DNA from: Agrobacterium tumefaciens
GTDB lineage: Bacteria > Pseudomonadota > Alphaproteobacteria > Rhizobiales > Rhizobiaceae
Assembly: GCF_017726655.1 (NCBI RefSeq)
Contig: NZ_CP072308.1
Span: 1,116,001 to 1,180,000 of the forward strand
DNA: 64,000 nt
Reading direction: 5' to 3'
How positions within the stretch are numbered: the stretch's first letter is position 1; each line of letters begins with the position of its first letter. A program made the translations under genes and the position numbers. Positions 18,763 through 36,424 of this stretch are shown in pieces. A model generated the notes under the pieces. The model did not search any database, was not told the origin of the DNA, and worked only from the letters and a program-made list of their open reading frames with translations.

Positions 18763-18969
18763 TCAGCGGATGGTTCTGGTTGCCGAAAGCCGGCCGTAAA
18801 GGGCGATCAGCCCGCCAATTCCGCCTGCGACCGTCACCAGTCCGTCGGCAAGCTCGCCTTCCAGCCCTGCTGGCAGATGCAGTCCGGCGATGCCGAAGAG
18901 CGGAGCGAAAACCGCGACCAGCGCGCCCCAGATGGTGCGGGATTGATACCATGCTTTGGTACTGTCCAT
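18763..18969 (-). CDS. Small two-helix membrane protein at the GTA 3' end (holin-like candidate)
   Basis: This 68-residue protein begins with a charged WYQSRTIWG segment and then has two hydrophobic helices: ALVAVFAPLFGIAGLHL and GLVTVAGGIGGLIALYGRL. A short basic tail follows. It starts 34 bases after the g15 stop on the same strand, so it is probably the last gene of the gene transfer agent transcript. Proteins of this shape occur next to tail or lysis genes in phages and are often annotated as holin-like. That function is an inference and no lysis gene is adjacent here. Confidence 0.6.
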   Translation of the reverse strand: MDSTKAWYQSRTIWGALVAVFAPLFGIAGLHLPAGLEGELADGLVTVAGGIGGLIALYGRLSATRTIR

Positions 18970-19003
18970 AATCTTGTCCTTTTCGTTGTTTTTCAGGCAC
19001 ATG

Positions 19004-22000
19004 TCAGGTCGGCAGGACGGCCTGCGCCGCCATGCCCCAGGGCACCGCGCGGCCAAGCTGGCGGACACGCACGGAAATGTGATCCCGCAATGCCGGGAAA
19101 TCTGTGAGTTCGGCGGCGGTGGCGTAAAGCCAGAGCGGTTCTAAAACTTCCGCCACCCGCCGGACAGTTGCTCCGTCAAGCACCTCGATGCGGTAGGATT
19201 CAGAAGGTTCGTCCAGTGGAATTTCGCTCGCATCCCACCCATCGGCCTCCACCCGCCCGCGCCGTTTCCACCGCACAAGCACGCCTTCCCGGCGCCTCTC
19301 AGCAACAAGATGAACCGGCGAAAGCGGCGTCAGAGCCCGCAGGCCGCCCTCGAAGGCGAAGGGCCCACTCGGCGCGCGCGCCATGCCTGCGGCCTCCGCG
19401 ATCCAGTTCAGACGTCTCCCGCGCTCGCCGGCAGCAAGGCCGAGCGGCTGCACAGCCCCATCCAGAACCACCACCGGCGCGCCTTTTGGAGCCCCGGTGA
19501 CCAGAGCGTCTTCCGTGCCACCGAGCCCACGCAGCAGCGAGGAGAGCCGCCAGCGCGATGGCGCGATTTCCTCGGCGCGCGCGAAGGCGACGATTTCCCA
19601 CATGCCATTGGCGGCACGAATGGCAAGGCGGTTCTCGCCGTTCAGAACCGAAAGCTCCGGCACGGAGGCAAGTTCACCAGAGGACAAATCCACGATGATG
19701 CTGTTCTGCCGGTCGAAGCGGCCGGAGGGACCGCTCGCCAAGGGCTGTGACAGGGCGCCGATCGTCGCCGGTTGCGAAAGCAGGACGCGCTGCCGATAGC
19801 CTTCAGTCCCCGGCGAAGCCGAGACGATGATGGGGCGCCACGGCTTTGCGAAGGCCGCGATCCTCGCTGAATCTTCCGGCAGACTGCCGTCATGATAGGG
19901 TAGATCGAGGAACAACACTTCCGGCGCGAAACCTTGCGCGCCGCTCGACGCATTGCCGCCCCGCTCCTCCTCCGGGCCGCCGCTGAAGACCGAAAAGGCG
20001 GGAGAAAACGCCCGCGCCTCCACCTGCCTCACCGCGCCGTCCTCGATGCGGCTGACGAGAAAGCGCCCGGCAGGCGCTTGTGGAAATGCACCGCCCGGCA
20101 GGCGGATGCAATCGCCCGGCTCAAGGCCGATCTCCGTGGGCGGCACGGCAAAACGCAGGCTGCGGCGCGCCTGTCTGTTGTCTCGCAGCAGGGCTTCTGC
20201 TGCCGCCTGCGCGGTTTCCGCAGGCAAGGCGGCAGCGAGATCGAGCCGCATCACCCGGCTGCCGGCATTGTCGATGCGGCGGGACCGAACACTAGCCTGT
20301 TCATAATTGAGCGTGGGATTGAATGAGGTCAGCACCACCTCGGCGGCAAAATCGCTGTCGTGACCGCGGTTTTCCGACCAGAGCGGCTCGTCCTCTCCAT
20401 CCGCGAGAACGGCGATCTCCCGCACGGGCATGACTGCAGTGTTGCGCGAGCGAAAGCGGAGGAAGGCGCCATCTTCCGCCGCATCCACCTGAAACGCTGC
20501 CATCAAAGGCTCAAGCAGGTTGCGGGCGGAGGTCACGTCGCCCTGCACGTAGCCAGTGAGATCTCCGGTGACGGCGGAAACGTCGAAGGCGGAAAAGCCG
20601 TGATCGGTGAGGATCGCGGCGATGGTATCGGCCAGCGTCGCCGTCCCCAACCTTCCGTTCAGCCAGTGGCCGGTGCGCCAGTTTGCCCCATCGCTCCAGG
20701 CCGCGCCGTTTTGCGGAAAGGCCGGAAACGGTCGTGCATCCCAGGTCCACAGATAGATGCGGCGGGGGTCGACCATGGTCCCGCCGGCCATTTGCCAGTG
20801 ATCGAGATGGGCTTCCAGAAACCGCCGCTGCTGGCTGTCGGCACGGTTTTTACGGGAGAAATGGGGAAAAGCGTTTTCCGCCGATTTGGGATCAGGAAAG
20901 ACATTCGGGCGCGTCGCGCTCTTGTCCACTGCCGGGCAACCGAGCTCGGTAAACCAAATGGGCTTCGAGCCCGGGACCCATGCCGTGGGCGTCGGCTTTT
21001 CGATACCCTTCACCCGGTCGAAATGGCGGCTCCGCCACCAAGTGCCGATGTCCTTGTATCGATATACCCATGCCTTGCCCCTAAGCCCGTCGGAAATCGG
21101 CGTCCGCCGGCGGGCAGCACGATCGGCGTCGCTGGCATAATACCAGTCATAACCCTCGCCGGCCGTGATGGCGCGCCGGAATGCGGCGGCGTCGTCCGGG
21201 CCGGTCATGCCATCGGGATTGCCGCTTGCAGCATCCTCATCACGCCAGTCGGAGAGCGGCATGTAATTGTCGATGCCGATGGCGTCGATATCCGGGCTCG
21301 CCCAGAGTGCATCGAGATGAAAAAAGACGTCGCCCGAGCCATCCGCCGGCTGGTGGCCGAAATATTCGCTCCAGTCCGCCGCGTAGGTGAGCTTCACCTT
21401 TGGGCCCATCACGGCCCTTGCATCAGCGGCGAGCCGCACCAGTTCCTCGACGAAGGGAAAGGCGTTGTTTTCATCCCGAAGCGATGTCAGTCCGCGCAAC
21501 TCCGAGCCGATGAGGAAGGCGTCCACCCCGCCCGCGCGGGCGACAAGCGCCGCATAATGCAGGATCATGCGGCGGTATCCGTCGCTGCGATTGCAGAAGG
21601 CGGTAATCGTCGCCCGGGCCGCTGCGCTGCCATCCGGCGAGCCGGGCCGTCCCGGTGCGGGAAAGCAGGTGATGCGCCCGCGCCAGGCGTAGGGATCCTG
21701 TTCAGGCCTGCCGTAGGGATCGGGCAATCCGTTGCCCGCGGGCACATCCATCATCACGAAGGGGTAAAGGCACACCCGCAGCCCACGGGCCTTGAGATCG
21801 GCGATCGCCTGCAGCACGCTTTCGTCATTCGGGGTGCCGCCATAGGCAGGACCACCGGCGTGGCGGCTGATGACGTGCGCCTCCCCGCGCGAAACGCCGG
21901 CGACGGACCATGGGCTCGTTTCCCCGTCGCGTGCGGCCACCTCCACGCCGGGCAGAACGCGGCAATCGCCCGCGCGCATATCCGTGCCAAACCAGCTGAC

Positions 22001-22807
22001 TACCAGCGCCACGCTTTCGAGATTGGGGCAGAGCGCCTGCAATTCATCGATCGCCGCCTGCCAGTCGGTCGCTGCGGTCAAACCATTGCGGTTCATGATG
22101 CGGCTTTGGCCGACGCCCGTGCGCTCGCTGACCTGCGCCGTGGCGTAGCCGTGCTCCGTTGCACCGGGAATGACCGTGATGGCGCGGACGGTTTTTTCGA
22201 GCTTGCCGACCGGCCGCACCACTTCGAACTGCATCAGCGGAATGCGATTGCCGTAGGTGTCGAGCGGCAGGCGCTCAAACACCACATAAGCCAGTCCGCG
22301 AAAGGCGGGCGTGTTGCCCGCGCCCTGCTTCGCCTCGATGAGCGGATCGGGCAATTGCGTCTCGCTGCCGGGATAGAAACGCATCTCGACAGCGTTGAGA
22401 TCGAGTTCCCGACCATCGGCCCATACGCGCCGCACCATTGCCGCTTCGCCTTCGCAAAGACCGATGGCGACATTGGCGAAGTAGCGGAATGTTTCCGTTT
22501 TCGGGCCGCGGCCCGCCTTGCCGCCGCGCCTTTGAACCTCCGTCTGCTCCTCGAAACGCGTGGCCCAGATCAGCGTGCCGCCGATCCGCGCCGTGCCGTA
22601 GAGCCGGTTGACTGCAGCACCCTCATCCGCACCGGGAAGGCGCGCCGTCGAAAGGCGCGGGCCTGTCACCGTCCTGCCGTTCGAGAGAAGGGCGCGATCG
22701 ACCGCATTGCCGGCGAGCGCCCCGGCCGCACGGCCAATCACCGCACCGAGCGGACCAAAAACGCCGCCGAGGGCAGCACCAGCTGCCTGAAAAACGATCG
22801 TCGCCAT
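19004..22807 (-). CDS. GTA tail host-specificity/TIM-barrel protein (g15)
   Basis: The 1267-residue protein is the largest of the cluster and close to the roughly 1300 residues of the Rhodobacter GTA g15 product. An N-terminal hydrophobic glycine-rich segment (GGVFGPLGAVIGRAAGALAG) is followed by a baseplate-hub-like region. A glycoside-hydrolase-type TIM barrel of the GTA_TIM family spans about residues 430-730 (LIGSELRGLTSLRD, WFTELGCPAVDKS, YLWTWDARPFPAFP), then a phage-tail-3 domain and a C-terminal receptor-binding region. It forms the tail tip that contacts the recipient cell. It is intact and follows g14 by 15 bases. Confidence 0.93.
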   Translation of the reverse strand: MATIVFQAAGAALGGVFGPLGAVIGRAAGALAGNAVDRALLSNGRTVTGPRLSTARLPGADEGAAVNRLYGTARIGGTLIWATRFEEQTEVQRRGGKAGRGPKTETFRYFANVAIGLCEGEAAMVRRVWADGRELDLNAVEMRFYPGSETQLPDPLIEAKQGAGNTPAFRGLAYVVFERLPLDTYGNRIPLMQFEVVRPVGKLEKTVRAITVIPGATEHGYATAQVSERTGVGQSRIMNRNGLTAATDWQAAIDELQALCPNLESVALVVSWFGTDMRAGDCRVLPGVEVAARDGETSPWSVAGVSRGEAHVISRHAGGPAYGGTPNDESVLQAIADLKARGLRVCLYPFVMMDVPAGNGLPDPYGRPEQDPYAWRGRITCFPAPGRPGSPDGSAAARATITAFCNRSDGYRRMILHYAALVARAGGVDAFLIGSELRGLTSLRDENNAFPFVEELVRLAADARAVMGPKVKLTYAADWSEYFGHQPADGSGDVFFHLDALWASPDIDAIGIDNYMPLSDWRDEDAASGNPDGMTGPDDAAAFRRAITAGEGYDWYYASDADRAARRRTPISDGLRGKAWVYRYKDIGTWWRSRHFDRVKGIEKPTPTAWVPGSKPIWFTELGCPAVDKSATRPNVFPDPKSAENAFPHFSRKNRADSQQRRFLEAHLDHWQMAGGTMVDPRRIYLWTWDARPFPAFPQNGAAWSDGANWRTGHWLNGRLGTATLADTIAAILTDHGFSAFDVSAVTGDLTGYVQGDVTSARNLLEPLMAAFQVDAAEDGAFLRFRSRNTAVMPVREIAVLADGEDEPLWSENRGHDSDFAAEVVLTSFNPTLNYEQASVRSRRIDNAGSRVMRLDLAAALPAETAQAAAEALLRDNRQARRSLRFAVPPTEIGLEPGDCIRLPGGAFPQAPAGRFLVSRIEDGAVRQVEARAFSPAFSVFSGGPEEERGGNASSGAQGFAPEVLFLDLPYHDGSLPEDSARIAAFAKPWRPIIVSASPGTEGYRQRVLLSQPATIGALSQPLASGPSGRFDRQNSIIVDLSSGELASVPELSVLNGENRLAIRAANGMWEIVAFARAEEIAPSRWRLSSLLRGLGGTEDALVTGAPKGAPVVVLDGAVQPLGLAAGERGRRLNWIAEAAGMARAPSGPFAFEGGLRALTPLSPVHLVAERRREGVLVRWKRRGRVEADGWDASEIPLDEPSESYRIEVLDGATVRRVAEVLEPLWLYATAAELTDFPALRDHISVRVRQLGRAVPWGMAAQAVLPT

Positions 22808-22822
22808 GCCTGCCTCACGAAA

Positions 22823-23257
22823 TCAGGAATCGGGGAAACGGAAAACGCCGGCGATGCGCCGTCGCCAGCCCGGCACCAGCGCCGAGCGCACCACCGCCGC
22901 CTGTTCGTAGGCGTGGATGAAATGATCCGGGTCGGCGAGAATGCCCAGATGTTTGGCCGCGGCATCCGCCCGCCAGCGAAACAGCAGCACATCCCCGGGC
23001 CTTGCCTCGTCCAGGCTGGAAACCGCGCCAAAATGGCGCGTCGCCGCCGCCATCAGCCGATCCTCGCCGCCGCGTTCGGCCCAGTCAGGCGCATAGGGGG
23101 GCGGCGACTCGGGCTCTTCGCCATAGAGCTCGCGCCAGAGGCCGCGGATGAGGCCGAGGCAATCGCAGCCGACACCCTTCAGGGACGCCTGATGCCTGTA
23201 AGGCGTACCGATCCAGCTTTCGGCCAGCGCCAGCACTTTCTCGGCTGTGTCGCTCAT
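22823..23257 (-). CDS. GTA tail-associated NlpC/P60 peptidase (g14)
   Basis: This 144-residue cell-wall peptidase has catalytic Cys33 in VGCDCLGLIRG and His103 in AAKHLGIL, the NlpC/P60 arrangement, with GDVLLFRW between them. In the Rhodobacter GTA the g14 product sits in the tail hub and cuts peptidoglycan crosslinks during DNA entry. The start overlaps the g13 stop by four bases (ATGA), showing translational coupling, and g15 starts 15 bases after its end. Confidence 0.93.
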   Translation of the reverse strand: MSDTAEKVLALAESWIGTPYRHQASLKGVGCDCLGLIRGLWRELYGEEPESPPPYAPDWAERGGEDRLMAAATRHFGAVSSLDEARPGDVLLFRWRADAAAKHLGILADPDHFIHAYEQAAVVRSALVPGWRRRIAGVFRFPDS

Positions 23258-24138
23258 GGAATCAGCGCTCCACCATCATGGATTTGGCCGCCGCTTGCAT
23301 AGGAATAGGCGAAATCGGCACCCGGCATGTGCGGAAAACCGCGAAAATTCAGTTGATTGGCAAATTTCGCCTGGCACGCGGCAAAACTCTTGTCGCAGCC
23401 TGCAATGATCGAAAACGTATCCCCGGGCAAAGGAAGCGTTTCCGGCGGCAGCCAGAAAGAGAGGAGCGCACCGCCGGTGCGTCGCTCATGACCTTCGATA
23501 TCGAAGGCTTTGCCGGCGAGCCTGCCGCTTGCGAAATGCAGCTTTCCCCGCGCAAAGAAACCGTCCGCAAAGGCGTCGAGGCCGGACGCCAGAAGCGCGC
23601 CCGAGGTTTGCACCGCCGCGACGCGGCCGTGGCCGGTGAAACGGGAGAGATCAACGCGGCAACGCCTGTCTCCCAACGCGGCATCGCAGCGGCGACCATA
23701 GACCCTGCCCTGCGGCTGGCCGAGGCGATGGGCGATGCTGCGAAGCTCCGCGCGAAACGACCCACCCGCCCGCGTCACCTCGCCGATCTCGCGCGCATGA
23801 AGCAGCACGCGCTGGTCCGGCGCCTGCCAGTTGACGAGGAAAAGCTCCACCGTCGCGCCATCGAAGCGGCCGGCGGCGAGATCGTCCTGCGCGATGGCGT
23901 CGCTCGAAAAGCCTCCCGCCACTTCGCCGGCGCTTGCGCCAAGTCCGGTTTCGCTGTCGCTGTCGCTCGCCGAAAAGCCACTGGCAGCCAGGTAGACCGC
24001 GCCGCCAAAGGAGACCGGCTCGTCATGGTCGGTGAAGCCGATCACTGCGCCGTCTCTCAATGTCACCTTCCAGCAATGGCAAATGGTGGTCGCATCGGCG
24101 CCGAGATGCCCGGCGAGGGCAGCGGGAATGGTTTTCAT
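23254..24138 (-). CDS. GTA baseplate/tail protein, DUF2163 (g13)
   Basis: The 294-residue protein has an N-terminal DUF2163 domain (LAGHLGADATTICHCWKVTLRDG then IGFTDHDEPV) and a C-terminal domain with conserved cysteines: YGRRCDAALGDRRCRVDL, and IIAGCDKSFAACQAKFANQLNFRGFPHMPG. The latter is the hallmark of phage BR0599-type tail proteins. In the Rhodobacter GTA this hub protein binds an iron-sulfur cluster through cysteines, and the same cysteine-rich layout is seen here. It is coupled by ATGA overlaps to g12 upstream and g14 downstream. Confidence 0.93.
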   Translation of the reverse strand: MKTIPAALAGHLGADATTICHCWKVTLRDGAVIGFTDHDEPVSFGGAVYLAASGFSASDSDSETGLGASAGEVAGGFSSDAIAQDDLAAGRFDGATVELFLVNWQAPDQRVLLHAREIGEVTRAGGSFRAELRSIAHRLGQPQGRVYGRRCDAALGDRRCRVDLSRFTGHGRVAAVQTSGALLASGLDAFADGFFARGKLHFASGRLAGKAFDIEGHERRTGGALLSFWLPPETLPLPGDTFSIIAGCDKSFAACQAKFANQLNFRGFPHMPGADFAYSYASGGQIHDGGALIP

Positions 24139-24773
24139 GGCAAGATTTCCAAGAGGGGGATCGAGGGGATGCGACCTGCCTCGAAAGCGGTGAGGTTCAC
24201 CTCGATGCGATCGATCGCGAAACGGACCGGAACGTCGAATTCGAAACCGGCGCGAATGATTGCGCCGGGGCGCGGCAACCGCCCCGCCCGAAATGTTACG
24301 ATACCCGTCGTGTAGTCGACATCGGCATCGTCAGAGCCAGCCTTTGCCCCATCGACCGAAACGGTCACGGAACCTTCTGCCGGTTTTTCAATCCTGCGGG
24401 TGAAGGAACCGCCCGCATCGGCATAGGTCTTCAGCAGCTGAAATCCGGCCGTCGCCCCATCGCCTGTCCCGATTATCTGGTCGGTTGCAGCAGGTTTCTG
24501 GCCGGGCGGGCAGGATTTGAAATCGACGGGATCGCGGAAGCGAAAACCGTAAAGCTCGCCACGCCGTGCCTCGAAGAAGGCGAGGACGTCGTAGAGATCG
24601 GCGACGGAGCGAATGCCCGAGCCCGCGTCATAGGAGCGCCGTGCGTTTCTCCAGCGCTGGTTACGGTTCTCCCTGCCGTTCGAGAGGTTGACGATATCCG
24701 TCCGCCGCACCGGCCCACCGCTCACACCGAGCGCAAGCCGCAGCGGAAACCGCACTTCATGAAATGCCGCCAT
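24135..24773 (-). CDS. GTA distal tail protein, DUF2460 (g12)
   Basis: The 212-residue protein matches DUF2460/TIGR02217: AFHEVRFPLRLALGVSGGP at the N-terminus, then RTDIVNLSNGRENRNQRW, DLYDVLAFFEARRG, YGFRFRDPVDFKS and a C-terminal VPVRFAIDRIEVNL. The family forms the distal tail ring to which the hub attaches. ATG 24773 has AGGA nine bases upstream. The stop overlaps the start of g13. Confidence 0.94.
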   Translation of the reverse strand: MAAFHEVRFPLRLALGVSGGPVRRTDIVNLSNGRENRNQRWRNARRSYDAGSGIRSVADLYDVLAFFEARRGELYGFRFRDPVDFKSCPPGQKPAATDQIIGTGDGATAGFQLLKTYADAGGSFTRRIEKPAEGSVTVSVDGAKAGSDDADVDYTTGIVTFRAGRLPRPGAIIRAGFEFDVPVRFAIDRIEVNLTAFEAGRIPSIPLLEILP

Positions 24774-25535: not shown

Positions 25536-25745
25536 TCACCCATCCGGAAACTGCCGCATCAATGCCTCCATTGTCGGGCGGTCAGGGCAGCGTGGGGTCA
25601 TGTTTCCCCCGGTCATCGCGAAGAACTCCCTCGGCGTCATGCGCCAAAAGGTTTCGGAGGAAAGCCGCAGCAGGTGGAAGCCCGTATGAAGCACGGCCTG
25701 CCATGGGAAGGGCGGCGGTGTCGCCCCGCCTGCTGCGGCTATCAA
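25536..25745 (-). CDS. GTA tail assembly chaperone-like protein (g10.1, rcc01693 type)
   Basis: This 69-residue protein contains FPWQAVLHTGFHLLRLSSE, then FWRMTPREFFAMTGG. The W-x-M-T-P-x-E-F pattern is diagnostic of the small rcc01693/phage_TAC_6 family encoded between the major tail and tape-measure genes. The TTG start at 25745 overlaps the g10 stop (TTGA), implying coupled translation, possibly with re-initiation. No stronger start is visible. It is likely involved in tail assembly rather than the finished particle. Confidence 0.85.
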   Translation of the reverse strand: MIAAAGGATPPPFPWQAVLHTGFHLLRLSSETFWRMTPREFFAMTGGNMTPRCPDRPTMEALMRQFPDG

Positions 25746-26101
25746 GGGTCCGGTGACGGGTGACCTTTCGGGTATGCGAATGTGGCTGTCAGGAGATCGG
25801 CGACGATCGCGGCATGGCCGGAAACGCCGCCTTCCACGGTGGCGGCGGCGACGTCCTCATCCGAGAAGACATTGCCTGCACCACGAAGACCGGCACCTAT
25901 CACCCTGATCATATCCGCCGCCTTCATGCGCCCGCTTGCGAAACGCTGCGCGAGCGCGGTCAGGTCGTCGGCCTCAAAGGCGGTTTCGAGCTCGGCAAGC
26001 GCCCCGAGCGTCAGGCATAAAATGCGCCTTTCGCCATCGATCAGCGCTTCGATCTCGCCGCGGTGGCGGTTTGCCCGCCCGTAACGCAAACGCTCAGCCA
26101 T
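25742..26101 (-). CDS. GTA gene-10 family tail protein
   Basis: The 119-residue protein begins RYGRANRHRGEIEALIDGE and contains RILCLTLGALAELETAF and a MIRVIGAGLRGAG helix. This is the gene-transfer-agent gene 10 / phage_TAC_11-like family (tail assembly chaperone group). The ATG at 26101 overlaps the g9 stop, and its own stop overlaps the g10.1 start. The role in tail-tube assembly is inferred from position. Confidence 0.88.
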   Translation of the reverse strand: MAERLRYGRANRHRGEIEALIDGERRILCLTLGALAELETAFEADDLTALAQRFASGRMKAADMIRVIGAGLRGAGNVFSDEDVAAATVEGGVSGHAAIVADLLTATFAYPKGHPSPDP

Positions 26102-26508
26102 CACACCGCTCCAAATGTCAAAAGACCCGCCGATTCCAGCGCGATCTCGAATTGCACTTCGCCATCGTGACGCCCGGAATATTCGAGCGCGACGATCTGG
26201 AACGGCCCGGTAATCGTGCCGAAATCGGGAATGAGGATCTGCCAGCCGGGAATGGTGCCCGTAAAAAAGGCGCCCCGAACCAGCGCATCGCTCGCCGCAT
26301 CCTTGAAGATGCCCGACGCCGTCAGCGCAGCTCTCTGCACCCCGGCACCCGCCAGCAACTCGCGCCAACGCCCGGCGCTTTCCCCATCGGTTATGTCCAC
26401 CGCCTGGGCGTTAAAGGCCAGCCGCTGGGTTCTCAGCCCGGCAACAGTGACATATGTTCCGGCATTGCTGAATTTCAGCAGAAAATCCTTGCCCTTCTGC
26501 GCCACCAT
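26101..26508 (-). CDS. GTA major tail (tube) protein (g9)
   Basis: The 135-residue protein begins AQKGKDFLLKFSNAGTYVTVAGLRTQ and contains FNAQAVDITDGESAGRWRELL and FQIVALEYSGRHDGEVQFEIALESAG, the standard TP901-1/GTA major tail pattern. The ATG at 26508 follows an AAGGAAAAAGC ribosome site. The gene is separated from g8 by an MFS gene read on the other strand, so g9 to g15 may need its own promoter, which would lie in the 26509-26600 interval. Confidence 0.92.
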   Translation of the reverse strand: MVAQKGKDFLLKFSNAGTYVTVAGLRTQRLAFNAQAVDITDGESAGRWRELLAGAGVQRAALTASGIFKDAASDALVRGAFFTGTIPGWQILIPDFGTITGPFQIVALEYSGRHDGEVQFEIALESAGLLTFGAV

Positions 26509-26597
26509 GCTTTTTCCTTCCGTTTCGATTGCGGTTGCAGGGTATTGCGGGCCTGCCACCAAGAATGTTCCTTGCCCTTGCATTGTGCGGTCCTGCC

Positions 26598-27797
26598 ATG
26601 TCCGATGTTGCCTCCATGACATTCCGCACACGCCTTATCGGCGTGCTGGCGCTCGGGCAGGTCGTCAGCTGGGGTTCCGGCTTCGACATGCTGGCCATTC
26701 TCGGCCCGCCAATAGGACGCGAACTCGCCATTTCCAACGAAGTCGTCTTTGCCGGACTGACAGTCATGATGACCATCAGCGCGCTTTGCGGGCCACTGCT
26801 CGGGCGGATGCTCGTGCGCCATGGTGCCGCGCCCGTGCTGATCAGCGGCACGCTTCTTTTTGCCTGCGGCTTTGCACTGCTTGCTTTTGCAGGCGGCGTC
26901 ACCAGCTATCTGCTGGGCTGGGCGGTGATGGGCCTTGCCGGCACCTGCGGGCTGACGACGGCGGCACACACTGCCGTGGTCGAGCGTGTCGGCGCAGAGA
27001 GCAGCCGATCCCTGACGCTGCTGATGGTCTTTACCGGCCTTTCGGCGGCCGTGTTCCTGCCCGTTACAGCATTCGCGGACCAGCATCTCGGCTGGCGGGG
27101 CACGCTGATTTTTTACGGCTGTCTTCAGTTGTTCCTGCTGCTGCCGCTTTACATCTTCGTTCTTCCGCAAAGACAGGGCGCGGCTCCAGGCCAGAGCCTC
27201 CATCCTGGCGAAATCCCGGCCTCGCCTGTCGATACGCGGCGCGCCTTCCTGCTTCTGGCGGCGATGATTACGCTCAGCTCCTTCACCGCCTTCGGCTTCT
27301 CGCCGCTTCTGCCTTTGCTTCTGGTGCATTCAGGCGCATCGCAAGCGCTTGCGATCCAGCTGGCCTCGGTGCGCAGCGTGCTGGCGATTACTGCGCGCGG
27401 GCTCGATTTTCTGCTGGGAAAACGTGGCAATCCCTTCATCACATGCCTCATCGGGCTCTGTCTTCTCCTGATATCCTTCCTGGTCCTGCTCGTCTTTTCT
27501 CCGGCCATACCCGCCTTTGCCGGCTTCATCTGCCTGTTCGGTTTCGGCGCGGGTGTGCTCACGGTCAGCCGCGCCGTGCTGCCGCTTGCGGTGTTCTCTC
27601 CGCAGCAATACGGACTTCAGGCTGCGCGGATCTCGCTCCCGCAAAATCTCGCCATCGCCTTTGCGCCTGTCATCTTCACCATGGCGCTGGACCGCGGCGG
27701 TGTGGCCGTAATGCTCGGCATCGCTTCCATCCTGATCATCTGTTCCCTGCTGCTGCTGATCCTGCTTTGGAAAACCGTGGCGGCACAAAAGGCTTGA
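26598..27797 (+). CDS. MFS transporter inserted in the GTA cluster
   Basis: This is a 12-TM major facilitator protein of about 399 residues. TM1 is preceded by TFRTRLIGVLALGQVVSWGSGFD. A loop 2-3 motif-A variant reads GPLLGRMLVRHGAAPVL, and the central loop is at GQSLHPGEIPASP. The substrate is unknown. It lies opposite to all GTA genes, between g9 and g8, ending seven bases before the g8 stop. ATG 26598 was preferred; an upstream ATG at 26565 is in frame and neither has a strong ribosome site. It looks like a cargo gene inside an otherwise compact phage-type operon. Confidence 0.85.
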   Translation: MSDVASMTFRTRLIGVLALGQVVSWGSGFDMLAILGPPIGRELAISNEVVFAGLTVMMTISALCGPLLGRMLVRHGAAPVLISGTLLFACGFALLAFAGGVTSYLLGWAVMGLAGTCGLTTAAHTAVVERVGAESSRSLTLLMVFTGLSAAVFLPVTAFADQHLGWRGTLIFYGCLQLFLLLPLYIFVLPQRQGAAPGQSLHPGEIPASPVDTRRAFLLLAAMITLSSFTAFGFSPLLPLLLVHSGASQALAIQLASVRSVLAITARGLDFLLGKRGNPFITCLIGLCLLLISFLVLLVFSPAIPAFAGFICLFGFGAGVLTVSRAVLPLAVFSPQQYGLQAARISLPQNLAIAFAPVIFTMALDRGGVAVMLGIASILIICSLLLLILLWKTVAAQKA

Positions 27798-27804
27798 AAG
27801 CGGC

Positions 27805-28199: not shown

Positions 28200-28531
28200 C
28201 GGTTTTCCTCTTCGCAGCGGCAGACGATGAAGCGGCGCGTTTCGTCCGGGTCCATCACAGCGCGGATGGCGAGACTGCGGCGGCCCTTGCGAAAACGCAT
28301 GCCGGCCGCAATGTCTTCACGGTACACCAGCCACACGCGGTGCGTGATCGTCACGCCTTCGGCCGACGCCCGCTCATGCGATGTCTCCGACACCGGTTCG
28401 ATTGCGGCCCAGAGCGACAGGAGGAAATTCCAGCTTTGCGCAGCACCACCCTGCCCGTCCGGCGTTTCGGTCCGCACGTCCAGTTCCAGCCGTGCCGTCA
28501 GCTTGCCGGGGTCGAGAAAAACGAGGTTCAT
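28196..28531 (-). CDS. GTA head-tail adaptor / stopper (g7)
   Basis: The 111-residue protein contains LDPGKLTARLELDVRTETPD and WAAIEPVS, then VTITHRVWLVYREDIAAGMRF and a C-terminal DPDETRRFIVCRCEEENR. This is the phage head-tail joining (SPP1 gp16/HK97 gp7-like) family pattern. It is placed between the connector g6 and g8, with an ATGA overlap onto g8. It forms the ring that closes the head at the tail interface. Confidence 0.9.
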   Translation of the reverse strand: MNLVFLDPGKLTARLELDVRTETPDGQGGAAQSWNFLLSLWAAIEPVSETSHERASAEGVTITHRVWLVYREDIAAGMRFRKGRRSLAIRAVMDPDETRRFIVCRCEEENR

Positions 28532-28534: not shown

Positions 28535-29104
28535 TCAAAGTCCCAGGCGGCAGAAGGGGGCCACCAGCCGCTCGTAACCGGCAGGAACCGCCGCAGGCTG
28601 GTTTTCCGGCGTGACAGCGCCGCGGAAGGCAAACATCTGTGCAACATGCGAGAGCATGGCGCGCTTCAGCGTGTCGGGCATATCCGTCCCCGCCTCGCCG
28701 TAACCGGCGATGAAATCGATCTCGATGCCGTTCATCACCCGCCCGGGGGACGGCGGATCGCGCAGCCAAAGCCGTGCCGGACGTGCCGCGCCATCGAGCA
28801 ATCTCTCGACGCCACGCAGGTTCTCTGCCTGGCCCGCGCCATCGAAAACCAGAATCGTTTCGATGGTTTGCACCGGTGTCTTGCCAAGCAGAATCACACC
28901 CGTTTGCGGCCAGCGATCGAGATAAAGCCGCCATGTCTGGCTGAGGAGGCAAAGGCCGGTGGTCCGCTCCAGATGCTCGCGCGCGGTGCGGATCAGCGCG
29001 GCAAGCAGCAGATCTTCTTCGCCGCTGTCGAGGCGCAGATGCGCCTTTACTTCGGCAAGCGTCAGCGGCTCCGCCTGCGGCGGATGAATGAGGGCATAGG
29101 TCAT
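28535..29104 (-). CDS. GTA head-tail connector protein (g6)
   Basis: The 189-residue protein starts HPPQAEPLTLAEVKAHLRL, the classic gp6-like connector opening, followed by LIRTAREHLERTTGLCLL, YLDRWP and EIDFIAGYGEAGTDMPD. Conserved aromatic and acidic residues at IDFIAGYG match the phage conserved hypothetical TIGR02215 family. It begins downstream of a RIME-like repeat that separates it from the capsid gene, and ends three bases before g7. Confidence 0.92.
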   Translation of the reverse strand: MTYALIHPPQAEPLTLAEVKAHLRLDSGEEDLLLAALIRTAREHLERTTGLCLLSQTWRLYLDRWPQTGVILLGKTPVQTIETILVFDGAGQAENLRGVERLLDGAARPARLWLRDPPSPGRVMNGIEIDFIAGYGEAGTDMPDTLKRAMLSHVAQMFAFRGAVTPENQPAAVPAGYERLVAPFCRLGL

Positions 29105-29283: not shown

Positions 29284-30552
29284 TCAGTTCACGCCGAATT
29301 TCACCAGCTTGATCGCCTCGAAATTCTGCACGCCGCCGCCCACGCGCTTGGTGGTGTAAAACAGCACGTAGGGCTTGGCCGAATAGGGATCACGCAGGAT
29401 GCGGACGCCGGTGCGGTCGACCACGAGATAACCTGCGCGGAAATCACCGAAGGCGATGGCAAAGCTGTTGGCCGCAACGTTCGGCATGTCTTCCGCTTCG
29501 GTGACCGGAAAGCCCATCAGCGAGGCGGGCTGGCCGGCTGCGGCTGGCGGATGCCAGAGATAGGCGCCTGTCGTGTCCTTGAAGCGACGCAGTGCGGACT
29601 GGGTTTTGCGGTTCATCAGGAAGTTTCCGTTCTGGCGGTGCCCCGCCTTCAGCCCGTAAACCGCGTCGAGGAGCACATCCATCGGTCCTCCCGACGCAAA
29701 GCCGGCGGAAACGCCGGTCGCGACATAGCCGATATTGCCCCAGCTCCAGCTGTCATTGGCAACGGCCGTGTAGGAGAGAAAACCCTTCGGCTTGTTGACG
29801 CCATCGCCGGCGATGAAGGCGGAGGCCTCCTGCTCGGCGAAGGCTATATCGACTTCCGAGGCGATCCACGTCTCGATATCAACCGCAGCATCGTCCAGCA
29901 GGGCCTGGGTGGCGGCGGGCATGGCGTAAAGTTCCATGGTCGGAAAGGTCAGCTCTGACAGCTTCGGCGTCGTCGTTTCGGGGCGAGCCGCGGTTTCCGC
30001 GACCCAACCGCTGGCCAGGCCGCTGGCGGAGAAAGGTTTTTTCAGAACGGCGGTGGAAACCTGCCGGACGGTTGCCAGCGCCCGGATCGGCGAAATCGCC
30101 GTCATGCGCCGGCCGATCTCGCCATCCGTTTCAGTCGGCAACAGGAAACCGCCATCAGCTCCCGCCGAACCGGAAAAGGCCTTGGCCTCGAGATCGCGCA
30201 GTCCCCCGTCTTCCCCGCGCCTGATATAGGCTTCGAAGGCCGCCTTATGCTCTTCGGCATCGTGAGACAAGACGTCCTTGCGTCCAAGCGCGGGGCGTGC
30301 CTTCTTGAGCGCCAGATCGTCCATGATCCTGCGGTTATCGTCGAGCGCCTTGTCGATGCGGTCGAGCTTATCACGGGTGACGACATCGGCGCCCATCTTG
30401 CGCTCGATATCGGCAAGCCGCTGGTCGTTGGTTTCCCGGAACGCCTCGAAGGCCTCCATGAAGTCGTCGAATGCCGCGGTCACCGTATCGGGCACAGCCT
30501 TCACCTGCGGCGCGACGGTCATCGGAGCCGGTTTCGTCGTCTGGTCTGTCAT
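29284..30552 (-). CDS. GTA major capsid protein, HK97 fold (g5)
   Basis: The 422-residue HK97-family capsid has an N-terminal helical scaffolding (delta) region with coiled-coil DDFMEAFEAFRETNDQRLADI. The mature coat begins near FSGSAGADGGFLLPTETDGEI and contains FPTMELYAMPAATQALLDDA, EQEASAFIAGDGVNKPKGFL and the C-terminal FRAGYLVVDRTGVRILRDPY. Cleavage by the g4 protease is expected just before the mature region. In GTAs this coat packs random host DNA of a few kilobases. Confidence 0.95.
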   Translation of the reverse strand: MTDQTTKPAPMTVAPQVKAVPDTVTAAFDDFMEAFEAFRETNDQRLADIERKMGADVVTRDKLDRIDKALDDNRRIMDDLALKKARPALGRKDVLSHDAEEHKAAFEAYIRRGEDGGLRDLEAKAFSGSAGADGGFLLPTETDGEIGRRMTAISPIRALATVRQVSTAVLKKPFSASGLASGWVAETAARPETTTPKLSELTFPTMELYAMPAATQALLDDAAVDIETWIASEVDIAFAEQEASAFIAGDGVNKPKGFLSYTAVANDSWSWGNIGYVATGVSAGFASGGPMDVLLDAVYGLKAGHRQNGNFLMNRKTQSALRRFKDTTGAYLWHPPAAAGQPASLMGFPVTEAEDMPNVAANSFAIAFGDFRAGYLVVDRTGVRILRDPYSAKPYVLFYTTKRVGGGVQNFEAIKLVKFGVN

Positions 30553-30583: not shown

Positions 30584-31174
30584 TCAGCGTTTGAAGCTTG
30601 TGTCGAACAGCGAGCGGGCGGCGCGACGCATGATGCGCACCAGTTCGGTCTCACGGTCGCGGAAGAAGCGGGCGTGCTTGACGTCGGAGACGCGCGCGGA
30701 CGGCAGCATCGGAAAGGTAACGACCGAGATTTCCCAGAGATCGGCTTCCAGAATGCGCCGGACACCGGCTTTGGTCGCCTTGCGAGCGCGCGCCTCTTTA
30801 CTGGAACGGACTGTGCGGAAGCCGATCGACAGCCCGTCCAGCGCGCCGGCCTTCATCAGCGAATGCACCTCGCGGGCACGGGCAACACCGGGCGCCAGCA
30901 TGCCCTCGACATAAAGTCCGCGCTCATCCTCGCGGATGGTACGCCAGGCGCCGATGGGCTCGGCTGGATCATGCTGGTAAAGCATGCGGATACCGCCAGC
31001 GCCCCGCTCCTCGATGGATCGGCGGAAGGCGCCGCGCTCGATCATGTCCTGACCGAGATCGACCTCCCCGAAGACGCTGGCGTAACCGGAAAAGGTGCCG
31101 TCACTGGTGATGCCGCGCAGTTCCAGACTGGCGAATTTGCGCGTGGCGGGGCGTGGCCCGCGATAGACGTGCAT
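30584..31174 (-). CDS. GTA prohead protease, HK97 family (g4)
   Basis: The 196-residue U35 prohead protease contains FSGYASVFGEVDLGQDMIERGAF, the usual N-terminal motif. The catalytic His lies in MLYQHDPAEPIG and the Ser in GALDGLSIGFRTV, followed by ILEADLWEISVVTFPM. An AGGAG ribosome site precedes ATG 31174. It matures the capsid encoded immediately downstream. Confidence 0.94.
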   Translation of the reverse strand: MHVYRGPRPATRKFASLELRGITSDGTFSGYASVFGEVDLGQDMIERGAFRRSIEERGAGGIRMLYQHDPAEPIGAWRTIREDERGLYVEGMLAPGVARAREVHSLMKAGALDGLSIGFRTVRSSKEARARKATKAGVRRILEADLWEISVVTFPMLPSARVSDVKHARFFRDRETELVRIMRRAARSLFDTSFKR

Positions 31175-31203: not shown

Positions 31204-31524
31204 TCAGACGCGCGGACGGGCGCTGTAGCGTTCGGCGATACGCACCAGGACGCCAAGTCCCCACCACGCGCCCATGCTGGCGGCCGCCGAGCCCGCCACC
31301 ATGATTTCCCGCCCCGAAAGGGCACCGGCAATGTCGAGCTGCTGCACGATCCACAGGCCGATCGGCCCGCCGAAGATCATGCCGCAGGAAACGCCGGTAA
31401 TGAAACGGCTCGCGGCTTCCCGCCTGCTTTTCGGCAGCAGGTAAACAAGCGATACGCCGGCACCCGCGACGGCGCCGGTAATGCGGGCGGCCCAGATGCC
31501 GGCCTCGTTGGCGAATTCAGACAT
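31204..31524 (-). CDS. Small membrane protein between portal and protease (g3.5 position)
   Basis: This 106-residue protein has three or so hydrophobic stretches: ARITGAVAGAGVSLVYLL, FITGVSCGMIFGGPIGLWIV and IMVAGSAAASMGAWWGLGVLVRI. Basic residues separate them. It occupies the place of orfg3.5 in Rhodobacter-type clusters. The shape resembles class I/II holins and the rhizobial DUF6107-like small proteins, so a membrane or lysis role is possible but unproven. It runs with the GTA genes and ends 30 bases before the protease start. Confidence 0.75.
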   Translation of the reverse strand: MSEFANEAGIWAARITGAVAGAGVSLVYLLPKSRREAASRFITGVSCGMIFGGPIGLWIVQQLDIAGALSGREIMVAGSAAASMGAWWGLGVLVRIAERYSARPRV

Positions 31525-31721: not shown

Positions 31722-32888
31722 TCAGTAGCCGACCGCTTCGCGTTTTTCCTCGTCACTGAGGAAAGATGCGGCTCCGATGCGGGACCACAGCGCGTCCCGC
31801 TCGCCCGCCAGTCCGGCAATTTTGTCGAGATCCGGTTCGAGCCGCAGCCCCGCCCCGAAGACCGGAGCGAGCCAGCCGCATAGCCTTGCCGCCGTACGGT
31901 TCACCAGCGGCAACACGGTCAAGCGGTAGAAGGCGCGGTTTGCCTCCTGATAGTTGGCGTAGGTGTTGTCGCCGGGGATGCCGATCAGCATGGGCGGCAC
32001 GCCGAGCGAGAGCGCGATATCGCGCGCAGCACCGTTGCGCGCCTCCAGAAAATCCATGTCGCGCGGCGAAAGGCCCATGGCCTTCCAATCCAGCCCGCCT
32101 TCCAGAAGCAACGGCCGGCCGGCATTCATCGCGCCCTGATAACCCTCCTCCAGCTCCCGCTTCAGCCGCTCATATTGCTCCGTCGAAAGATTGCCGCCCT
32201 CCTTCGGCTGGTAGACCAGCGCGCCTGAGGGCCGAGCGGAGTTGTCGAGCAGGCGCTTGTTCCACTGGCTTGCGGCATTGTGCAGATCGAGTGCGGCGCC
32301 CGCGGATGCAAGCGGCGCAAACCCGGTCCGGTCATCCAGCGGGTGGAACAGCTTGAGATGCAGCAGGCCCAGGCCATCGCGCTCGGCCGCGATACGCCGG
32401 GTCGTGCGTCCTTCGGCCCGGTACTCGTAAGCGACAGGCCAGCCATCCGCCCCCTCGACGATGCTGACCCGGTCGGGCCGCAGCAGATGCAGTTCGCGCA
32501 ACCGCCCGCTGATAACGAGCGGTTCGACATAGGCGTTCCCGGCAAGCAGCAGATGACCGTAAAGCGCCTCGAAAAAATCAGGGCCGCTCATATGGCCGCT
32601 CGGCTTTGCAAGCAATGCCAGCAGCGGATGGTCGGCCAGTTCGTCGTCGCCGTCATAGAGCAGCCAGCTGACGGCGGCAGACGCTTCCGCAACCATGCGC
32701 GCCGCGCGGTGGGCGACCGGGTTCTTCATAAAGCCTTCGCGGGACAGCGCGGCATAAGACCGGCCGGACCAGAAAGCCTGTCCGCCCTGCACTGCCACCG
32801 CCATGAAGCCATCAGCCATTTTCCGGTTTTCAGGCACGGCTCTGCCGTCCACCGGGCGCAGCCACGGCAGGGAGAAGGGAAGTCGCAT
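31722..32888 (-). CDS. GTA portal protein, HK97 family (g3)
   Basis: The 388-residue portal has NPVAHRAARMVAEASAAVSW near the N-terminus, LLALLAKPSGHMSGPDFFEALYG, then AGNAYVEPLV and a C-terminal region with PPMLIGIPGDNTYANYQEAN. The I-P-G-D-N-T-Y-x-N-Y motif is typical of HK97/GTA portals. It forms the dodecameric ring for DNA packaging. Here it is separated from the terminase by a lysozyme gene, a Dabb gene and a repeat, whereas GTA g2 and g3 are usually adjacent. Confidence 0.94.
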   Translation of the reverse strand: MRLPFSLPWLRPVDGRAVPENRKMADGFMAVAVQGGQAFWSGRSYAALSREGFMKNPVAHRAARMVAEASAAVSWLLYDGDDELADHPLLALLAKPSGHMSGPDFFEALYGHLLLAGNAYVEPLVISGRLRELHLLRPDRVSIVEGADGWPVAYEYRAEGRTTRRIAAERDGLGLLHLKLFHPLDDRTGFAPLASAGAALDLHNAASQWNKRLLDNSARPSGALVYQPKEGGNLSTEQYERLKRELEEGYQGAMNAGRPLLLEGGLDWKAMGLSPRDMDFLEARNGAARDIALSLGVPPMLIGIPGDNTYANYQEANRAFYRLTVLPLVNRTAARLCGWLAPVFGAGLRLEPDLDKIAGLAGERDALWSRIGAASFLSDEEKREAVGY

Positions 32889-33184: not shown

Positions 33185-33493
33185 CTATCGGATCGGCGCT
33201 TTCACCGCCCTGTCGCTGTCGAAATCGGCGGCAATGCGGGTGTCGCGCAGCGGCTTTACCGTGCGGGTCGAAAGATCATAAGCGGGATCGGCCTTGTACG
33301 CCGCAAGCGCCGCCTCGTTTTCGAACTCGCCATAGACGATGAAATCGACCGAGTTGCCCCATTGGTCCTTCTTGACGTTCTCGCCGATTTCCAGCTTCAG
33401 CGCGTGCGGGATGGCGGTGAGGCCGGAGAGGCCCTTGCGCACGGCATCGCGGTTTTCCTCGGGAACGGTGAAGAAGACGATATGGCGGATCAC
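33185..33493 (-). CDS. Dabb-family stress-responsive alpha/beta barrel protein
   Basis: The 102-residue protein begins VIRHIVFFTVPEENRDAVRKGL. The I-R-H-I-V-F-F opening plus VDFIVYGEFENEAALAAYKADPAY is diagnostic of the Dabb ferredoxin-like fold, which dimerises and is often linked to stress or aromatic metabolism. The GTG at 33493, with AGGTG upstream, fits the usual start of the family; an in-frame ATG at 33508 would add five residues. It is not a known GTA gene, so it is probably cargo. Confidence 0.85.
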   Translation of the reverse strand: MIRHIVFFTVPEENRDAVRKGLSGLTAIPHALKLEIGENVKKDQWGNSVDFIVYGEFENEAALAAYKADPAYDLSTRTVKPLRDTRIAADFDSDRAVKAPIR

Positions 33494-33548
33494 GGTGTCA
33501 CCTGTCATGCAAAGTTCAACGATGGCCGGTTGGCGGTGGTAGGGGTTA

Positions 33549-34187
33549 TCATCTGGCTGGCGCGGGTTCAATCCGCGCCGCGACAAGGGCCGCATGAAAT
33601 GCACGGCCATAGCCCGCGACCAGCCGCGCCCTGTCGCTGCCATTGATGATTGCCCGCGCACCTTCCCAATCTTCGCTGGCCCCGCTCAGGAAATGCGAAA
33701 GCCGGCGGCCGGTGAAGCTGCCACGCACCATGCCAAGGATCAGGATCGCCGTCGCCACGTCAAGCGCCATGGCGCGTTCCGGCCGATCGAGAAGGTCGAC
33801 GCCTGTGATCGCCGACATGGTCTCATAGTTGCGGCGATGGGTGAGTTGCACGAAACCCCGGCCGAGCCAGCTTTTTCCTTCGGCATCCGGGCGCCAATAG
33901 GGTTTGCGTACCATGGGCAACCGTCCGGCCGTAAAAGCCCGGTCGAGCCGCGCAATCGCTTCGGCATCGCTCGCCGCCATGGTCTCGCGCACCGGCTGCA
34001 TGGTCGCCGCCGTTTCGTGAAAAGCCGTCGCCAGCATGTAGGCGAGCCAGCGCGTGTCACCCTGAGGGAGTTGCTTTTCGAAACCGGAAACGATCGCTTT
34101 CGTGCCAGCGAGCTGCTCCCCGAGCAGACGACCGTCGAAGACCGACAGGCGTATCGACGCGACGAATCGTGCCTCGTGGTATGGCAT
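33549..34187 (-). CDS. GH19-type lysozyme/chitinase-like endolysin within the GTA cluster
   Basis: This 212-residue enzyme has no signal peptide. The catalytic Glu58 lies in YMLATAFHETAATM and the substrate-groove motif is GRGFVQLTHRRNYE, both characteristic of GH19 phage-type endolysins. A C-terminal helical part carries DWEGARAIINGSDRA. AGGAG sits five bases before ATG 34187. Lying between terminase and portal and oriented with the GTA genes, it could release particles by cell lysis. In Rhodobacter capsulatus the endolysin is encoded away from the structural cluster. Confidence 0.85.
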   Translation of the reverse strand: MPYHEARFVASIRLSVFDGRLLGEQLAGTKAIVSGFEKQLPQGDTRWLAYMLATAFHETAATMQPVRETMAASDAEAIARLDRAFTAGRLPMVRKPYWRPDAEGKSWLGRGFVQLTHRRNYETMSAITGVDLLDRPERAMALDVATAILILGMVRGSFTGRRLSHFLSGASEDWEGARAIINGSDRARLVAGYGRAFHAALVAARIEPAPAR

Positions 34188-34507: not shown

Positions 34508-34550
34508 TAGCCGTCAGCCGCCTGATTTTCGGCCACTGACGATGCCTCGT

Positions 34551-34577: not shown

Positions 34578-34636
34578 TGGCAGCCTGCGCCAGACCTCGT
34601 TCAGCCTGCGCCCGCATAAGCTCATCAGCGAAAGCG

Positions 34637-35896
34637 TTACATTCCCCGCACCTTCGGTTCACTCGTTACCAGCGTCGTCAGCGCCGTCATCGCCCAGACA
34701 AGCGCATCCAGCCGGTCTGGGGAGCGACCCGACGAGAGGCCATCGGCTGTAAAATCGGTCATCTGGTCTTCCAGTTTTTCAAATCGGGCGGCGTGACGCA
34801 CGCGGCCCTGTTCGTAGAGGGCCGCCACGGGCTCGGCGCGGGCGAATTTGCCCCGGCTTGCGCGCACCAGCGTCAGCGGCAGGTGTGCATCGATGCTCTG
34901 CAGCATGGCGCGCACCATCTCGCCGCCCTGATTGATTTCCGCCACCACCCGGTCGGCCTCGTGCCGGCGAAAAGCGGCCACAACCGCGCGGGCCCAGCCT
35001 GCCGGCGTTTCGGCTTCCACGGAGGAGTCGGAGAGCACCACAAGACGACCGGACATGCCCTGCCCTGCCACAACGATGCCGCAGCAGGAATGTTCACCGG
35101 CGCCCGAGGGCGGATCGACCGCGACCACCACACGCGAGAGAGGCTCGTGGTCGGCGTCGGTGATTGCCTCCAGGTCGGCCCGTTTCCAGAGCGCCCCCTC
35201 GCGATCATCGATCAGTTCGCCGCCGATTTCCTGCCGCCCCAGCCGGGTGCCGCCGTAGCGGTCCTCGATAGCTTTCAGGAAGTCCGGAGACAGATTGCGT
35301 GCGTTCATCGCGGTCGGCATCCTCGCCACGCGCGCCGTCGGATCGGCAAGTAGGGCCTTCAGCAGCGGAATGGGCCGGGGGGTCGTGGTGACGAGTTGCC
35401 GCGGCGCCTCCCCCAGCCTCAGACCGAATTGCAGCATGTCCCAGGTTTCCTGCGGATATTTCCATTTGCCGAGCTCATCCGCCCAGGCCATATGAAACTG
35501 CGGCCCGCGCAGGCTTTCCGGGTCTTCCGAGGAAAACACCTGCGCCACCGCGCCATTCGGCCAGAGAAGGCGACGCCGCGACACTTCGAAAACCGGACGA
35601 CGCCTGCGGGCGATGCGGCATATGCCGGAGATACCGTCGATCATCACCTCGCGGGCATCACCCAGCGTTTCCGCCACAAGCGCGATGCGCAGCTCCGACT
35701 GCCTGCCGGAGGAAGCGACTGCGTGTATCCATTCGGCTCCCGCCCGGGTCTTGCCGGAACCACGTCCGCCGATCAGCAGCCATGTGCGCCAATCCCCTTT
35801 TGGCGGCTGCTGCGGCAGGTTACCGACAAAACGCCAGTCTCGCTGGAGAGCGCGAAGCTGCGTCTGCAGATGGAGTTCATCGCAAAGGTCCTGCAT
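34637..35896 (-). CDS. GTA large terminase subunit (g2)
   Basis: The 419-residue packaging ATPase/nuclease has a Walker A at residues 43-50 (GGRGSGKT), a Walker B in FHMAWADELGKWKYP and a coupling motif TTTPRPIPLL. The C-terminal RNase H-like nuclease has acidic residues in VVVAVDPPSG, VVAEINQGG and RLDALVWAM. It cuts and packs DNA into capsids; in GTAs packaging is largely sequence-independent. ATG 35896 begins three bases after the g1 stop. Confidence 0.95.
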   Translation of the reverse strand: MQDLCDELHLQTQLRALQRDWRFVGNLPQQPPKGDWRTWLLIGGRGSGKTRAGAEWIHAVASSGRQSELRIALVAETLGDAREVMIDGISGICRIARRRRPVFEVSRRRLLWPNGAVAQVFSSEDPESLRGPQFHMAWADELGKWKYPQETWDMLQFGLRLGEAPRQLVTTTPRPIPLLKALLADPTARVARMPTAMNARNLSPDFLKAIEDRYGGTRLGRQEIGGELIDDREGALWKRADLEAITDADHEPLSRVVVAVDPPSGAGEHSCCGIVVAGQGMSGRLVVLSDSSVEAETPAGWARAVVAAFRRHEADRVVAEINQGGEMVRAMLQSIDAHLPLTLVRASRGKFARAEPVAALYEQGRVRHAARFEKLEDQMTDFTADGLSSGRSPDRLDALVWAMTALTTLVTSEPKVRGM

Positions 35897-35899
35897 CCG

Positions 35900-36424
35900 T
35901 CACTCACCAGCCGCCGGACCGTTCGATGCGACAAGCGCCTCCTGCCAAGCGCGGCACTTCTGCTCCGCCAGTTCATCGATACGGTTGAGAAAATGCGCGA
36001 CCGCCGTTTCGTAAGCTTCAGCCTCCGCATCGTCCTCGATGACGAGCGCCTCACGCTCTTCAGCCAGCACCCGCTGCAAGGCGTCGATCCGCTCCAGCGT
36101 GCGCACAATGAGCGACAACTGGTCGGTCGCGGCTTTGACATCGGCCCGCGCTAACTTGGCCGACGTGTCCTCCGGCGCACCCAGCAAGGCCGCCTCACCC
36201 GCCTGCCGGAGATTGCGGTAGAGCCCGACCTCGTCGCGCATCTCGTCCGTCAGCTCGTTCAGCAGCTCTCGCAGACGACCGTTGCGCACCGCATCTTCGG
36301 CAATCAGCTTATTGGCCCGCGACTTCGTTTCCGGCGCGGTGTCCAGAGTGCCCTCGCCCGTACCGGTGGGCCGTTCCGGCCACGCGCTGTGGAGAGCCGG
36401 GTCGCAAGTGTCTGATTTCGTCAT
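35900..36424 (-). CDS. GTA gene 1, putative small terminase subunit
   Basis: The 174-residue protein is strongly helical and acidic, with coiled-coil-like segments (LRELLNELTDEMRDEVGLYR, RTLERIDALQRVLAEEREAL) and a Pro/Thr-rich N-terminus. It is the first gene of the cluster, immediately before the terminase, in the position of GTA g1. That product has been shown in Rhodobacter to act as a small terminase lacking specific DNA binding. The assignment is by position and composition more than by a sharp motif. The main GTA promoter should lie upstream of 36424. Confidence 0.8.
   Translation of the reverse strand: MTKSDTCDPALHSAWPERPTGTGEGTLDTAPETKSRANKLIAEDAVRNGRLRELLNELTDEMRDEVGLYRNLRQAGEAALLGAPEDTSAKLARADVKAATDQLSLIVRTLERIDALQRVLAEEREALVIEDDAEAEAYETAVAHFLNRIDELAEQKCRAWQEALVASNGPAAGE

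Follow-up and report, generated by a model that had tools for sequence, protein, structure and literature searches.

The window analyzed here, a 64,000-nt stretch (C1:1116001-1180000) of the 5.08 Mb, two-contig genome of an Agrobacterium tumefaciens strain, carries on its minus strand, from 36424 down to 18763, a cluster of head and tail genes that follows the order g1 to g15 of a gene transfer agent (GTA) of the Rhodobacter capsulatus type (RcGTA). Matches to Pfam, PHROGs, NCBIfam and PDB sequences bear out the gene order and positions that the original prediction had proposed (Table 1). That prediction had described a near-complete set from g1 to g15; the order holds, but g8 is frame-broken and an endolysin gene, a gene for a Dabb-domain protein and an antisense gene for an MFS transporter interrupt the series. 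The broken g8 and the embedded genes had been overlooked, as had a gafY/gafZ-like gene pair and a promoter-like block upstream of g1. At the lower boundary, the holin-like open reading frame (ORF) at 18763-18969 may belong to the cluster, with a weak holin match (phrog_34682, E 0.0096).

The closest relatives that we found are located on Rhizobiales chromosomes, and the cluster occupies one fixed site common to these relatives, with an alpha/beta-hydrolase gene (identified in the Pfam run) on one side and a response regulator/kinase pair on the other. The labels g1 to g15 and the names of the flanking genes chvI/chvG, ccm and degP are presumed assignments from our reading of the sequences. In pairwise comparison, capsid identity is 90-93% in loci of the Agrobacterium clade and, for most of the listed loci from other Rhizobiaceae, 66-81%.

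Six of the eight cluster proteins compared with PDB sequences match solved RcGTA chains, whereas g11 and g14 retrieved other chains in this search and none from RcGTA. With 1686 bits, g15 exceeds the cut-off of 800 for the NCBIfam equivalog GTA_megatron. Profile searches found homology to the g1 to g15 families for most products, with the exception of g1. Because of the RcGTA-chain matches, the equivalog score, the shared chromosomal site and the absence of an integrase, membership of the RcGTA type is well supported at the sequence level.

An HK97-type head and siphovirus-like tail genes could also be carried by an ordinary temperate prophage. However, such an element would be recognized by an integrase and att sites, and we find no integrase in the window (0 of the 10 PF00589 matches in the genome, in line with the original prediction), no tRNA and, among 20 of the 24 repeat families listed, no exact direct repeat longer than 15 nt. 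The cluster furthermore keeps its chromosomal position from genus to genus and encloses host genes, and g15 scores as an RcGTA equivalog. A temperate prophage was therefore rejected and is regarded as extremely unlikely, and the preference of the original prediction for an RcGTA-type element is upheld. Matches in the phage collection are below 60% identity for all 349 TerL (large terminase) records, 457 of 458 capsid records and 9 of 11 g9 records. The two nearest records for all three proteins are the GTA-like loci L212 (MW091529.1) and L213 (MW462191.1), in which the GTA genes precede homologs of the pair that flanks the cluster in the window, with 82-84% identity for the response regulator and 47-48% for the kinase. 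These homologs are annotated there as antibiotic efflux or PhoP-like.

Table 1. Features of the GTA locus in the window.
Feature	Position	Strand	Evidence
Promoter-like block of the GTA operon	36743..36771	-	TTTACA, 17-nt spacer with palindrome ACCGTGACGGT, TAGTGT
g1, putative small terminase	35900..36424	-	position; conserved before TerL
g2, large terminase	34637..35896	-	PF03237 1e-30; PF17289 2e-23
GH19-type endolysin	33549..34187	-	phrog_181 endolysin 3e-27; PF00182 7.6e-5, under cut-off
Dabb-domain host gene	33185..33508	-	PF07876 4e-21
g3, portal	31722..32888	-	PF04860 4e-83; RcGTA 6te8 4e-121
g3.5 position, DUF6107	31204..31524	-	PF19602 4e-55
g4, prohead protease	30584..31174	-	PF04586 3e-35
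g5, HK97 major capsid protein	29284..30552	-	PF05065 2e-88; RcGTA 6tb9 9e-102
g6, head-tail connector	28535..29104	-	TIGR02215 7e-81
g7, head closure	28196..28531	-	PF05521 3e-23; TIGR01563 6e-25
g8, frame-broken	27805..28199	-	63 aa, then conserved rest in another frame
MFS transporter gene between g8 and g9	26598..27797	+	PF07690 7e-23; NCBIfam ArsK 140 bits, cut-off 400
g9, major tail tube protein	26101..26508	-	PF06199 2e-42; RcGTA 6tba_5A 4e-43
g10	25742..26101	-	PF11836 GTA-gp10 1e-29
g10.1, tail assembly chaperone	25536..25745	-	PF09550 8e-16
g11, short tape measure protein, 193 aa	24846..25427	-	NF058675 156 bits; tape-measure PHROGs; no Pfam match
g12, distal tail protein	24135..24773	-	PF09343 2e-80; RcGTA 6tba_6B 5e-67
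g13, hub protein	23254..24138	-	PF09931 1e-57; RcGTA 6tba_7A 1e-60
g14, NlpC/P60 peptidase	22823..23257	-	TIGR02219 3e-70
g15, baseplate megatron with GTA TIM barrel	19004..22807	-	PF13547 1e-134; NF048004 1686 bits; RcGTA 6tba_8A 4e-253
Holin-like small membrane protein (weak)	18763..18969	-	phrog_34682 holin E 0.0096; phrog_29088 1e-5; no Pfam match; kept after g15 in relatives
gafZ-like gene (DUF6456)	62730..63566	-	PF20057 6e-40
gafY-like gene, DnaA-type HTH, overlaps gafZ-like gene	63550..63978	-	PF08299 5e-10; NF004687 6e-68

Approximately 26 kb upstream of the cluster, at 62730-63978, two overlapping genes encode a DnaA-type helix-turn-helix (HTH) protein and a DUF6456 protein, resembling GafY and GafZ, respectively. 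DUF6456 and GTA_TIM have an identical distribution over the 39 genomes of the genus, with 33 encoding both and 6 neither. The putative activator, encoded outside the cluster, is thus found in 33/33 GTA-bearing and 0/6 GTA-less genomes. In a family sample of 199 genomes, 145 encode both domains, 5 only GTA_TIM, 20 only DUF6456 and 29 neither. The five genomes with only GTA_TIM belong to the genera g37 (G074, G176, G245) and g72 (G109, G201), and may use another activator or carry another kind of element. That gafA homologs and GTAs are linked (196 of 208 GTA genomes) is already published (PMC9765227), and the losses within the genus, described below, are further cases of this link.

The promoter-like block (Table 1) lies about 320 bp before g1. 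Of 110 partly redundant loci, 84 have the pattern TTKACNNCGTGACGGT upstream of g1/g2 with at most one mismatch (53 of 69 named loci, 28 of 38 further stretches and all three of L076, L212 and L213), compared with none of 110 shuffled sequences. These counts derive from 121 loci, from which 11 with a short upstream sequence or no g1/g2 match were dropped; many genomes are counted twice, some of these loci had also served to derive the pattern, and L165, L188 and L193, which were mis-sliced, are included as misses. The exact 15-mer occurs once in the strain's own genome. A genome-wide search returned this site and 23 sites with one mismatch, as opposed to 13 for the reversed control, and no regulon was called. 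In the six GTA-less loci the block is absent beside the hydrolase gene, even with up to 3 mismatches allowed; single weak matches occur elsewhere in L086 and L088, and a neighbouring AGGAAAATAATCCT stretch persists in G028 and G062. In Caulobacter, according to the part of PMC11150451 at hand, GafZ requires a palindrome between the -10 and -35 elements and lets RNA polymerase pass terminators. By analogy, the block upstream of g1 is a possible candidate for a GafZ-binding element.

Between g8 and g9 the series is interrupted by the antisense MFS gene, whose product has ArsK as its nearest NCBIfam model, under the cut-off. In our survey of named loci, comprising the best 80 of 147 capsid matches, 26 have an MFS match between g7/g8 and g9, and in 26/26 it is antisense. 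These are 11 loci of the Agrobacterium clade and 15 of other Rhizobiaceae, including Rhizobium, Neorhizobium, Endobacterium, Ferirhizobium, Ciceribacter and two of the three A. vitis loci; no MFS match was found among the same 80 loci in the A. rubi group, Shinella, Martelella and others. Within the genus, the gene is present in 20 of the 38 other genomes, all of them GTA-bearing, and in a further two without a GTA. The stop codons of g8 and the MFS gene are 7 bp apart in the window; among the 19 clade-1 relatives, the distance is 5-7 bp in 18 and 16 bp in the other. Among 14 of the 15 loci of other genera (all but L152), 12 fall between an overlap of 56 bp and a gap of 25 bp, and the other two have gaps of 203 and 305 bp. 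On the GTA strand, the stretch between g8 and g9 measures 1296 bp in the window and shows no terminator-like site in our scan. At the DNA level, the MFS segment (26500-28000) is 86-90% identical to A. pusense G008 (L040) and 72-80% to four other relatives, and G008 is elsewhere 72-86% identical to the window, except in g9 and the Dabb gene (91%). This pattern suggests a local recombination tract.

In a tree of flanking proteins from the 39 genomes (the window's own included), the six that lack the GTA fall into three separate positions. By Fitch parsimony this takes 3 changes, whereas 1000 shuffles of the labels needed 5.7 on average and never fewer than 4. The ccmH flank query, with 4 internal stops, had matches in 28 of the 39 genomes; without this doubtful protein, again 3 changes were obtained for the GTA, and 1 for the MFS gene. 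As outgroup genera carry GTAs, the changes are read as losses, and we infer that the GTA and its activator were lost about three times in the genus. The site in all six GTA-less genomes retains the order hydrolase, Dabb gene, response regulator, and in two of them (G028 and G062) the MFS gene is also retained, in unchanged order and orientation. The MFS genes of these two genomes are sister to the clade-1 MFS genes, as the genomes are in the flank tree. Stepwise deletion around the retained host genes explains this arrangement better than excision as a single unit and, on this comparison of sequences, the GTA is inherited vertically at a fixed chromosomal site.

Median pairwise ratios of nonsynonymous to synonymous substitutions (dN/dS) in clade 1 are 0.07-0.25 for 18 cluster genes, including the holin-like and endolysin genes, 0.18 for the MFS gene and 0.027 for the Dabb gene. 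This set leaves out g8; the row g8C (median 2.59) derives from a wrong-frame query and is not a result for g8. MFS and capsid distances are strongly correlated over 35 loci (Mantel r 0.968) and less so over the 20 clade-1 loci (0.637), where values for MFS against g3, g12 and g9 are 0.51-0.60. Such tracking of capsid distances, together with the long co-residence across genera, might indicate that the MFS and Dabb genes serve the GTA as functional components, or travel with it as cargo, and are not lodged host genes. Against this, the Dabb gene is retained in 6/6 GTA-less genomes and the MFS gene in 2/6, both from the MFS-bearing clade, a close MFS copy is missing from 12 of the 33 genomes in the genus that carry a GTA, and the MFS gene is antisense. 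We therefore consider a function as GTA parts very unlikely, and treat both as host genes lodged in the cluster.

The cluster shows further variation among relatives. The endolysin gene has no match in L032 and L038 and a partial match in L041, with the rest of the GTA retained. In L054, L055, L063, L064 and L067, approximately 1 to 14 kb of extra sequence is found between GTA genes, and the portal match of L064 is split by about 14 kb. In two genomes of the genus, second TerL matches with 50-53% identity, possibly from prophages, are located at G003:C4:41747-42952 and G005:C1:298807-300015. Elsewhere in the window, an ORF at 49663-50487 on the minus strand resembles, by eye, a class D beta-lactamase in its motifs. 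An Rfam scan of the window gave no matches at gathering scores, and a PADLOC scan of 5 proteins gave none.

In the window, the g8 ORF starting at 28199 stops after 63 amino acids and its conserved remainder is in another frame, with a stop at 27805; both halves are conserved. In contrast, g8 is an ORF of 131-144 amino acids in one frame in 17 of 18 clade-1 relatives, and the 18th (L042) has a tblastn match at 81%; for L042 and L057, ORF selection had taken a longer ORF in the wrong frame. Because the relatives read g8 in one frame, a programmed frameshift is not favoured. The break may be recent and real, in which case the strain might be unable to complete its tails, or it may be an assembly error. 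The loss of frame in a gene that is intact in relatives could signify that g8 is a recent pseudogene and that the cluster is a decaying GTA no longer making particles in this strain, and the three inferred losses in the genus show the GTA to be dispensable. Nevertheless, both halves of g8 are still conserved, the remaining ORFs of the cluster are open and evolve under purifying selection across the clade, the activator pair likewise consists of two open frames, and a one-base assembly error is possible. Decay of the GTA in this strain thus appears unlikely, though far from negligible.

A noncontiguous operon contains a gene that runs in the opposite direction to the genes around it. We tentatively propose that the GTA is such an operon across several Rhizobiaceae genera. 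The GafY/GafZ-like pair would act at the one promoter-like block before g1, where GafZ would load on the palindrome that separates the -35-like from the -10-like element, rendering RNA polymerase resistant to terminators. A single transcript would then extend from g1 to g15, crossing about 1.3 kb that are antisense to the MFS gene and hold no GTA coding sequence. In the few producing cells, this antisense transcription would silence the MFS gene, whereas in other cells the MFS and Dabb genes would serve as ordinary host genes, making GTA production and transporter expression exclusive per cell. Promoter function, GafYZ action, antitermination, antisense silencing and the packaging of random DNA are all inferred.

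Antitermination would carry RNA polymerase past the antisense MFS gene that separates g8 from g9; from the layout and by analogy, dependence on it is likely, and the GafZ-type step in itself would have at best an even chance of being correct. The combination of a noncontiguous operon, antitermination through the transporter gene and exclusive expression appears less likely than not. A comparable degree of doubt applies to two transcription units, in which the upstream promoter would serve g1-g8 and a second one, in the gap between the MFS gene and g9, would serve g9-g15; the antisense gene would then need no antitermination. From the MFS start to g9 the gap spans roughly 90-120 bp, which leaves room for such a promoter, and it contains a conserved stretch in 20 aligned clade-1 sequences. 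However, this stretch can equally be read as a divergent MFS promoter, and the exact 15-mer of the g1 type occurs only the once; our simple sigma-70 scan lists nothing in the gap, which carries little weight as it misses the g1 block too.

For the locus as a whole, we consider an RcGTA-type GTA under GafYZ-type control highly probable, although several observations weigh against this assignment or the single transcript. The broken g8, which leaves the core genes incompletely intact for an RcGTA-type GTA, counts against particle formation in this strain. The product of g1 has no Pfam, PHROG or NCBIfam family match; what remains of its prediction as small terminase is its position and its conservation 5' of TerL in relatives, from which we label it, and the predicted model consists of two long helices (mean pLDDT 78). 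With 156 bits, g11 is under the cut-off of 220 for RcGTA_tape. The promoter-like block has two or more mismatches in 26 of the 110 loci and is not listed by the sigma-70 scan, and the pairing of GTA_TIM with DUF6456 is imperfect outside the genus (20 + 5 of 199). The GTA strand between g8 and g9 contains a 273-codon stop-free frame (a 284-aa mechanical ORF), which we assume to be untranslated, and the conserved stretch in the gap might provide g9-g15 with a promoter of their own.

GTAs are widespread in alphaproteobacteria, and the locus bears on the reasons for their retention and on how so large a cluster can be expressed as a unit. Losses of the GTA with the embedded host genes retained provide natural presence/absence comparisons, and the layout offers a direct test of antitermination as what holds the operon together. 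A literature search joining gene transfer agent, Agrobacterium and MFS transporter returned no matching publication; within the literature searched, a long-lived antisense gene inside a GTA cluster, and its likely dependence on antitermination, appear to be new.

The kind of GTA is itself already known in Rhizobiales. In the RcGTA of R. capsulatus (Rhodogtaviriformidae, alphaproteobacterial type I GTA), the genes run from g1 to g15 and the lysis genes are located away from the main cluster. The window resembles it in gene order and in the homology of capsid, portal, g9, g12, g13 and g15, and differs in the broken g8, the internal endolysin, the Dabb gene, the antisense MFS gene and the holin-like ORF after g15. 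Its activator is also split into a gafY/gafZ-like pair, in contrast to the single GafA of R. capsulatus (PMC11150451). RcGTA-like clusters were assigned by GTA-Hunter in 155 of 300 Rhizobiales operational taxonomic units (PMC6821227, per the table row as we read it); the window holds one such cluster, and the excerpted text of that source does not mention embedded antisense genes. Possible independent GTA losses in nodulating lineages are noted in the portion seen of PMC7363004. The GTA of Caulobacter crescentus (CcGTA), controlled by GafY, GafZ and IHF, is like the window in its split activator and in a palindrome between -35 and -10 elements, although its palindrome sequence is unlike that of the window, and the accessible part of the report (PMC11150451) mentions no antisense gene within the Caulobacter cluster. 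Finally, the window is similar in layout to the noncontiguous operon, or excludon (PMC7154746), in having a gene of opposite direction amid one proposed operon.

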